A DNA stretch of 64,000 bases. Source: Cytophagaceae bacterium (GTDB lineage: Bacteria; Bacteroidota; Bacteroidia; Cytophagales; Flexibacteraceae). A program made the translations under genes and the position numbers. Under the pieces are notes generated by a model, which worked only from the letters and a program-made list of their open reading frames with translations, did no database searches and was not told the DNA's origin. Positions 17,569 through 19,462 of the stretch are shown one piece after another; position 1 is the stretch's first letter; each line of letters starts with the position of its first letter. The DNA is taken from positions 62,001 through 126,000 of the forward strand of contig CANGYH010000005.1 of the NCBI GenBank assembly GCA_947458545.1. The letters are read 5' to 3'.

Positions 17569-18069
17569 TTAGCCAACAGCAGCAATTTGTTGCAAATCGA
17601 TTGTAGTTAAGTTCTCCCACAGCTGCTTGGCTTGTTTGATCTCTTTATATTTATCAAGCATTTTCATATAGCTTTCAATCTTACGCTCTCCATGATTGTC
17701 TAGTTTTAGCGATTTATGTTCTGGATAGGAACCTATACGTTCAATGAGAAATTTAGCGAAGTACAAATACGGTCCTTGGTGACCATCAAAACCTTGAAAT
17801 GTAAGCTTTTTCTTTTCAGTATCATTCAGACCCGATATTTCTTTTGGAAAATCTCTGAACATGTTAAGAATTTCAAACACGACATTACATTGTTCTCTTG
17901 AAACTACGTTTTCTACGGTTGAAAATAGATGCACATCATACAATCCTTCGTAACCCATTAGAAGTATTTCGGCTAGGTTTTCGTAGTGACTTGCATGATC
18001 GGGATTTAAAGAGGCCAATATGGCATACTGGTTCGCTAGTAATAAGCGCTCGGTGGGAGTTAGGTTCAT
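17569..18069 (-). CDS. yfbU: YfbU family protein
   Basis: 166 residues from ATG 18069. The N-terminus MNLTPTERLLLANQYAILA is that of E. coli YfbU (MEMTNAQRLILSNQ...), and the pattern continues with NVVFEILNMFRDF, KLTFQGFDGH and YLYFAKFLIE. YfbU is a helical protein of unknown function; its overproduction is reported to be toxic in E. coli, which is background knowledge only. Base composition is sharply AT-rich against GC-rich neighbours and codon use differs (AAA, TTT, ATT, TTA dominate), which points to horizontal transfer. A TAATTTTG -7 element lies at 18142-18149. No mobile-element gene is beside it. Confidence 0.87.
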   Translation of the reverse strand: MNLTPTERLLLANQYAILASLNPDHASHYENLAEILLMGYEGLYDVHLFSTVENVVSREQCNVVFEILNMFRDFPKEISGLNDTEKKKLTFQGFDGHQGPYLYFAKFLIERIGSYPEHKSLKLDNHGERKIESYMKMLDKYKEIKQAKQLWENLTTIDLQQIAAVG

Positions 18070-18141
18070 AAACTTTAAGGTTTCTAACGTCTTTATACGA
18101 AATCTTTGTTTAACAGGTTGCAGCAACCGTCGTTAAAATGA

Positions 18142-18149
18142 CAAAATTA
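18142..18149 (-). promoter_or_regulatory. Candidate -7 element of yfbU
   Basis: TAATTTTG on the minus strand, an exact TAnnTTTG match, 72 bases before ATG 18069. The surroundings are AT-rich so a chance match is possible. Confidence 0.35.
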
Positions 18150-18315
18150 ACAATTTGGTAATACTAGCTACCCGCTCGCAAGCTTACCCTAACCTTTCGG
18201 AAATCTAGTAATGGTCCAGGTATCTCAACAAAATAAAGAATCTATGCATACTAAACCTCTCTACCTCACACCTTTCGCCCATTACCCTTTAAATGCACTG
18301 ACAAGAGGCTCCTTT

Positions 18316-18350
18316 AATAAAAAAGCGGAGCTCTTTCGAGCGTCCGCTTT
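18316..18350 (-). terminator. Strong terminator between yfbU and bioB
   Basis: On the minus strand: AAAGCGGA pairs with TCCGCTTT (8 bp) and an inner GCTC/GAGC with a 4-base loop, one bulged G, then TTTTTTATT. It ends either bioB transcription or the candidate small RNA that precedes it. Confidence 0.85.
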
Positions 18351-18437
18351 AGGCTTAGAACAGCATCCTAAACCAAGGAGGTCCCGGGTGTTACCCCGAG
18401 TCCTGGCGCAAGTGGTTGCCCCAGGGCCCTGACCTCT
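18316..18437 (-). ncRNA. Candidate small structured RNA downstream of bioB
   Basis: A likely separate transcript of about 120 nt. On the minus strand a TTG (18471-18473), a 21-base spacer and GTTCTTTG (18442-18449) form a promoter-like pair; the predicted start near 18437 falls exactly at the 5' strand of a closing stem P1 (GAGGTC at 18431-18436 with GACCTC at 18378-18383). Inside P1 are two hairpins: one from 18418-18426 with 18402-18409, and one from CGGG 18385-18388 with CCCG 18395-18398. A TTTAGG/CCTAAA stem (18348-18353, 18367-18372) and a strong terminator (18316-18350) follow. No family is recognised; SRP RNA and 6S RNA hallmarks are absent. It could instead be the structured 3' end of the bioB mRNA. 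Confidence 0.35.
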
Positions 18438-18481
18438 ACCACAAAGAACGCAAACGGCGAGCCATAGTTCCAAGAGGAGGC

Positions 18482-19462
18482 TTAGGCCTCTACAGGGACT
18501 TTGGCGTCTTTATAGGCGGGGCGGGGGTGCAGGCCGAGCAGGTCGAAGAGGGCCTGGTCTGACTCTTGCTCGGGGTTGGCCGTGGTCAGCAGCTTTTCGC
18601 CGGTGAAGATCGAGTTGGCCCCGGCCATAAAGCACATGGCCTGCTCCTCTTGTGTCATCCGCACACGCCCGGCCGAGAGGCGCACCATGGCCTGCGGCAT
18701 GATGATGCGCGCCGTGGCAATCATGCGGACCATGTCCCACACGGGCACCTTGGGCTGATCCTCCAGCGGGGTGCCTTCTACGGGCACCAAGGCGTTCACG
18801 GGGACGGACTCGGGGTGCTCGGGCAGGGTGGCCAGGGTCAGCAACATGCCGATGCGGTCTTCCACCCGCTCGCCCATGCCGATGATGCCGCCCGAGCATA
18901 CATGCAGCTTGGCCTTGCGCACGGCCTTCAGGGTGGCCAGGCGGTCGTCGTAGGTGCGGGTGGTGATGATCTCGGAGTAGTGCTCTTCGCTGGTGTCCAG
19001 GTTATGATTATATGCGGCCAGGCCGGCCTCGGCCAGGCGCTGGGCCTGGTCTTCGGTCAGCATACCGAGGGTACAGCAAACCTCCATGTCCATGGCGGCC
19101 ACACCGCGGACCATGTCCAGCACGCGGTCGAAGTCGCGGTTGTCGCGCACCTCGCGCCAGGCGGCACCCATGCAGAAACGGGTAGAGCCTGCCGCTTTGG
19201 CGTTGGCGGCGGCGGCCAGTACCTCGCCAGTCTCCATCAGCTTATGGACTTTTACGTCGGTGTGGTAGCGGGCGGCCTGTGGGCAGTAGGCGCAATCCTC
19301 TGGGCAGCCACCTGTTTTAACGCTCAGCAGGGTGCAGACCTGCACCTCGCCAGGCGTGTGGTACTGGCGGTGGACGGTGGCCGCCTGATAGACAAGCTCC
19401 AGGAAGGGCTGGTGGTAAATGGCAGAGACTTCGTCGAAGGTCCAGTCGCGGCGGGGCGTCAT
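18482..19462 (-). CDS. bioB: Biotin synthase
   Basis: 326 residues, a radical SAM enzyme that inserts sulfur into dethiobiotin in the last step of biotin synthesis. The SAM [4Fe-4S] cysteines are in CPEDCAYC (Cys53, 57, 60). The ligands of the auxiliary [2Fe-2S] cluster are also present: Cys in [11 protein letters not shown], Cys in [10 protein letters not shown], Cys in [12 protein letters not shown], and the Arg in [10 protein letters not shown]. The family motif [12 protein letters not shown] is intact. ATG 19462 is the first start. No other bio gene is adjacent. Confidence 0.97.

Follow-up and report, generated by a model that had tools for sequence, protein, structure and literature searches.

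Does the short region between bioB and a yfbU-family gene in this Cytophagaceae genome contain a free-standing small RNA (sRNA) gene and, if so, what kind of RNA would it encode? From the letters of the window, i.e., the whole 64,000-nt stretch of DNA that was analysed, the initial annotation had proposed an sRNA gene of about 120 nt that fits no known family. The present analysis supports such a gene, of about 119 nt, and genome-wide searches add sister copies and a common promoter type that the earlier reading did not contain. The features of the locus are given below.

18437-18319, minus strand: candidate sRNA gene, copy 1 of the core family, recognized by its promoter, fold, terminator and paralogs
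18482-19462, minus strand: bioB (BATS and Radical_SAM domains), upstream of the sRNA gene on the same strand
17569-18126, minus strand: yfbU-family gene (PF03887, E 4.9e-29) in an AT-rich islet adjoining the sRNA 3' end
18467-18473, minus strand: upstream promoter element TTGGAAC, identical in copies 1-4 (TTGCAAC in c5)
18442-18451, minus strand: downstream promoter element GCGTTCTTTG, 15 nt after TTGGAAC; RCGTTMTTTG at equal spacing in all five sRNA promoters of the genome
18437, minus strand: predicted start of transcription at an A; in all five promoters a purine occupies +1 and T occupies -1
18402-18425, minus strand: hairpin 1, CCUGG..CCAGG plus an inner stem; 8 pairs, all cells paired in three copies, 4 double-sided changes
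18383-18400, minus strand: hairpin 2, CUCGGG-GUAACA-CCCGGG; 6 pairs, all cells paired in three copies, 1 double-sided change
18377-18382, minus strand: ACCUCC, conserved as ACC-N-CC in the alignment of three copies
18352-18374, minus strand: hairpin 3, 10 bp; copies 2 and 3 have a hairpin of different sequence and length in the same place
18319-18350, minus strand: intrinsic terminator, 12 bp with a one-base bulge, GAAA loop and U6; pairing kept between copies 1 and 2

Promoter, fold and terminator of copy 1

The arrangement TTG-N21-GTTCTTTG described in the initial annotation is present on the minus strand (TTG at 18473-18471, GTTCTTTG at 18449-18442). As a whole, the promoter word mixes the sigma-A-like elements TTG and TTTG with the ECF-style elements GGAAC and CGTT, and the -35 consensus of ECF sigma factors is of the GGAAC type. 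The ECF-type pattern GGAAC-N16-CGTT is matched exactly by the three core copies and by a further sRNA gene, c4. In Flavobacterium psychrophilum, according to the available text of PMC9723704, ECF-type promoters carry a CGT box, and one of them precedes a putative regulatory RNA. The published -7 box is TAnnTTTG, and the promoter word has GT at the place of TA. Use of an alternative, ECF-like sigma factor may be what these elements reflect, but the accompanying sigma-A elements tell against it, as does the failure to find an ECF gene behind a promoter of this type.

The transcription start was placed at A18437, 5 nt after TTTG, because the sigma-A box of Bacteroidota is spaced at -12 to -5 (PMC9723704, available text). 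The start had earlier been said to coincide with the first base of a closing stem; the predicted start agrees, but the stem, GAGGUC/GACCUC, begins one base later, at 18436. Likewise, the three-way junction described previously survives in part: copies 1 and 3, but not copy 2, have its closing stem in their minimum-energy fold.

The whole RNA is predicted to fold at -60.4 kcal/mol (z -4.44), and none of 200 shuffles is as stable; without the terminator z is -3.02, so the terminator accounts for part of the stability. The strong U-run terminator proposed at the outset is borne out by a stem at 18350-18322 (8 bp, a one-base bulge, 4 bp and a GAAA loop) with a U6 run at 18324-18319, and its pairing is maintained in 24/24 cells across copies 1 and 2, with double-sided changes in 6 of the 12 pairs. 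A simple terminator scan did not include this terminator among its matches, probably because of the one-base bulge in the stem. Copy 1 has both an intrinsic terminator and a compact structure, as is expected of an intergenic sRNA gene. A protein- or polymerase-binding structural RNA, similar to 6S rather than to base-pairing sRNAs, is also conceivable from the strong double hairpin with its few unpaired conserved bases, and the genome has no match to 6S-Flavo (RF01685) at E<=1, which leaves the 6S slot open and was counted for this reading. We consider it very unlikely, however, given the lack of any Rfam match, the existence of three copies and the absence of a long single hairpin with a central bubble.

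Paralogous copies and a promoter word at five probable small RNA genes

When 39 genomes were searched by blastn, the own genome alone was matched, with a second, partial match on another contig. This copy 2 shares with copy 1 the promoter, both hairpins and the bulged, GAAA-looped terminator stem. From copies 1 and 2 a covariance model (R1) of the 50-nt core was built, which, run over 291 genomes of the order, recovered copy 3, again in the own genome (34.8 bits, E 9e-4; the three own-genome copies score 72.9, 72.3 and 34.8 bits), and nothing better than E 0.09 elsewhere. With copy 3 added to the model, a search of 395 genomes of the class recovered nothing at E <= 0.05 beyond the three copies of the own genome. 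No fourth core copy was found in the own genome, where the next match stands at 17.6 bits and E 5.3.

All 42 cells formed by the 14 core pairs in three copies are standard pairs, and 5 of the 14 pairs are changed on both sides, in a structure taken from folds of these same three copies, which are few for covariation statistics and weigh to that extent against the reading preferred here. None of 500 shuffles reaches this degree of pairing, and only 12-57% of cells pair when the partner is slid by one to three columns. The hairpin 2 loop varies across copies (GUAACA/GUACGC). Homologous copies with a conserved fold of this kind point to paralogous, or sibling, sRNAs. A covariance search had been named in the initial annotation as a check of the RNA; it yields compensatory changes among the own-genome paralogs, but no homologs outside this genome. 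A coding reading of the RNA, suggested by open frames of 63 and 73 aa, was rejected, as the 5' parts of the paralogs differ by 5-12 nt and the hairpins covary.

The promoter was then searched as TTGGAAC-N15-RCGTTNTTTG over the own genome at up to 2 mismatches, yielding 10 sites: 4 exact, 1 with one mismatch and 5 with two. The five at <=1 mismatch are all intergenic, lying outside frames of 100 codons, and each precedes a short structured RNA, with T at -1 and a purine at +1 throughout. The five two-mismatch sites all fall within frames of >=100 codons, and no protein gene of the genome was found under the word at <=2 mismatches. The shorter pattern GGAAC-N16-CGTT occurs at 12 sites of the genome; the 4 outside frames are copies 1-4, 7 are inside frames, and the remaining one (L137), located where a reading frame has its 3' end, is followed by a protein frame instead of an RNA. 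The five promoter-associated RNAs comprise the three core copies and two further genes, c4 (z -7.05) and c5 (z -2.82).

L097 1500-1413 (G000:C2:131232-131263), minus strand: putative c4 sRNA gene, same promoter but a body unlike the core, flanked by a STAS-domain gene and a PhoD-like phosphatase gene
L100 1496-1398 (G000:C1:651530-651561), minus strand: putative c5 sRNA gene, one-mismatch promoter, between a tyrosine recombinase (integrase) gene and a convergent gene whose 472-aa product contains a PBECR3 nuclease domain

A partial tRNA match is also seen near c5. In an automatic test for terminators, four of the five RNA genes qualify; c4, whose hairpin is strong but whose U tract is short, does not, a point against the preferred reading. 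The view that the parts of copy 1 agree beyond chance is strengthened by two paralogs with compensatory changes and by five near-perfect promoter sites that all precede short structured RNAs. Judged from sequence, these loci are three paralogous and two unrelated sRNAs under one promoter type, and a word common to five loci argues that copy 1 has a promoter of its own.

A further reading, in which the RNA is a terminated leader or attenuator of yfbU, draws on their common strand and on the ~190 nt between the terminator and the yfbU reading frame. It is hardly credible, since the gene that follows copies 2, 3 and 5 is in each case convergent with the RNA, and nothing codirectional lies downstream of paralogs 2 and 3.

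On balance, 18437-18319 is probably an independent sRNA gene, one of three paralogs under a special promoter that would act as sibling regulators in trans. The promoter TTGGAAC-N15-RCGTTMTTTG would drive the three core sRNAs and the two unrelated ones, one signal would switch the sibling RNAs on together, and each core RNA would end at its own intrinsic terminator. The RNAs, if so expressed, may then base-pair with mRNAs in trans through their unpaired parts, for which the ACC-N-CC stretch and the hairpin 2 loop are candidates. The genome encodes one RRM_1 protein, which possibly assists pairing. The ACCUCC of copies 1 and 3 matches the anti-Shine-Dalgarno core of 16S rRNA. The phylum Bacteroidota is largely without Shine-Dalgarno sequences (PMC9723704, available text). 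Against a role in pairing, part of the ACC-N-CC stretch is already base-paired in the folds predicted for copies 1 and 3.

Taken together, these results most likely describe a real, hitherto undescribed sRNA family of a known kind, confined as far as seen to one genome. To our knowledge, Bacteroidota other than the gut genera have yielded few sRNA families, and the locus would provide a new three-copy family from this phylum with a testable structure. Moreover, the intergenic occurrences of the promoter word in this genome lie solely before putative small RNAs, an unusual exclusiveness that would make an sRNA-only sigma regulon directly testable. A parallel for such an arrangement is found in enterobacteria, where the sigma-E dependent MicA and RybB are unrelated sRNAs under one GGAAC-type promoter, as here several unrelated sRNAs are; in this genome, however, no protein gene was found with the promoter at <=2 mismatches, and any dedicated sigma factor is putative.

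Two systems of Bacteroidota offer additional comparisons. For example, the available text on FopS describes 14 paralogous sRNAs in B. thetaiotaomicron, which have an RRM protein partner in Bacteroides (PMC11697453). The likeness appears to lie in multicopy paralogous sRNAs with a common promoter type and intrinsic terminators, together with an RRM protein encoded in both genomes. FopS RNAs, as described there, combine 14 copies with a single-stranded 5' seed, a terminator and canonical sigma-ABfr promoters, whereas the core family has three copies, two conserved hairpins and a TTGGAAC/RCGTT promoter. FopS has been deposited in Rfam according to the same text (PMC11697453), and the core RNA has no Rfam match, so that no sequence relation is seen; the core sRNAs seem to resemble FopS in logic while being unrelated to it. 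The SM6 (ECF-type) promoters of F. psychrophilum likewise have a CGT box in the -10 region and count the putative regulatory Rfp11 RNA among their targets, but SM6 drives mainly protein genes (T9SS), and the available text states no GGAAC element for it (PMC9723704).

AT-rich islets beside the core copies

The 600 nt downstream of the core copies have a GC content of 0.38, 0.41 and 0.42, versus 0.61 for the window, and these three runs are the only AT-rich ones in the window and in two 16-kb stretches. The RNAs themselves have a GC content of 0.58-0.60, near that of the genome, and the change falls at the terminator. In a 400-kb sample from other parts of the genome, the GC content is <=0.45 in 2.0% of the 600-nt windows and <=0.425 in 1.4%. 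The promoter word (<=2 mismatches) has no site in that sample, so most AT-rich islets lack such an RNA. Each islet beside a core copy holds one gene, yfbU at copy 1 and homologous, nuclease-like genes, here termed X, at copies 2 and 3.

L002 1553-2149 and L091 901-1458: stand-alone X genes, both of which stop at an sRNA terminator

The two X proteins are 32% identical and are the only X copies in the genome. X beside copy 2 has a weak match to Tox-REase-7 (E 9e-4, below the cutoff of that family), and X beside copy 3 has no Pfam family match. X is convergent with the RNA at copies 2 and 3, yfbU is codirectional with copy 1, and c4 is without an AT-rich neighbour. The association of islets with the RNA was noticed after the fact and is suggestive only.

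One explanation of this association is that RNA and AT-rich neighbour form a functional unit, in which the RNA, as an antitoxin or repressor, would restrain a horizontally acquired toxin-like gene and which would have been duplicated with different cargo. As regards an RNA antitoxin of type I/III, what is observed is the adjacency of RNA and gene. All three core copies adjoin an AT-rich single-gene islet, as against 1-2% of sampled windows, both genomic X copies are convergent with an RNA copy and end at its terminator, and the sub-cutoff Tox-REase-7 match, together with the PBECR3 nuclease gene convergent with c5, would suit such cargo. In addition, E. coli yfbU has been called a ‘death gene’ under DNA damage in the available text of PMC2646832. 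Nevertheless, the core RNA is alike whether its neighbour is X or yfbU, which gives no sign of pairing specific to the cargo, and the differing orientations of X and yfbU, the lack of an AT-rich neighbour at c4 and the lack of any PADLOC match also speak against a unit. X homologs occur elsewhere at 6 sites in five other genomes, and at the four of the six that were checkable no sRNA promoter was found downstream. On this evidence the explanation is unlikely.

Alternatively, the RNA genes may be host genes whose 3' ends, at the terminators, are hot spots where foreign single genes insert; the function of the RNA would then be unrelated to the cargo. The GC content of the RNA, near that of the genome while that of the cargo is not, and its shift at the terminator would be expected from insertion, and a tyrosine recombinase gene lies near c5. 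No repeats common to the islet far ends and no terminal repeats of mobile cassettes were found, however, and the presence of X beside two RNA copies is not favoured by random insertion, making this a rather improbable account as well. A lineage-specific cassette, in which an sRNA module under an sRNA-only alternative-sigma promoter restrains different acquired genes of nuclease or death type, is a bolder and quite doubtful extension; were it true, the RNA would be a common safety device for foreign cargo. Whichever account applies, the tie between a core copy and an AT-rich foreign gene poses a concrete question of how such genes are tamed.

Distribution beyond this genome

Over the window, Rfam gave no gathering-level match except for two tRNAs, and over 18140-18560, searched up to E 10, it gave no minus-strand match, including none to a described family such as FopS, and only an unrelated weak match on the plus strand. 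The earlier statement that no known family fits thus holds, with no Rfam match to SRP RNA, RNase P or tmRNA at the locus. The literature searched, in its available text, contains no description of such an sRNA family. In 80 bioB loci, the window and L002 aside, no R1 match has an E value under 4.9, and the promoter word at <=2 mismatches, searched in these loci and the window, occurs at the window site only. No between-species conservation is seen, since the core was not found in the 39, 291 and 395 genomes (the own genome excepted) or beside bioB in the 80 loci, and this counts against the preferred reading of an independent sRNA gene.

The core had no match in plasmid and phage collections, and its exact pattern occurs 0 times in viral contigs, where a shorter promoter word has 1 match, within an HNH-like reading frame. 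The exact promoter word is also carried by 22 viral contigs, which served as a control: 21/22 sites are in frames of >=149 codons, and 0/22 are followed by a terminator below -6 kcal/mol (none stronger than -5.5), so these are apparently chance occurrences.

Finally, 58 other genomes contain 21 one-mismatch sites in 18 genomes and 0 exact ones (hand-summed), a number not above that of a reversed-pattern control (27), which again weakens the preferred reading. Twenty of the 21 sites were examined (L111 was too short), and 19 of these are in frames of >=100 codons, the exception being L114. The site at L122 is in a 120-codon frame that looks spurious, since no ORF that begins with a start codon reaches 80 aa at this place. 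From their sequence features, L114 (same family) and L122 (another family of the order) look like sRNA genes, with RNA bodies unrelated to the core. At L122 (1501-1640), the promoter type is followed by a terminator-ended RNA of ~104 nt with a weak predicted fold (z -1.42), which lies in prophage-like surroundings, where integrase and muramidase genes occur, and is convergent with an LPD3-domain gene.
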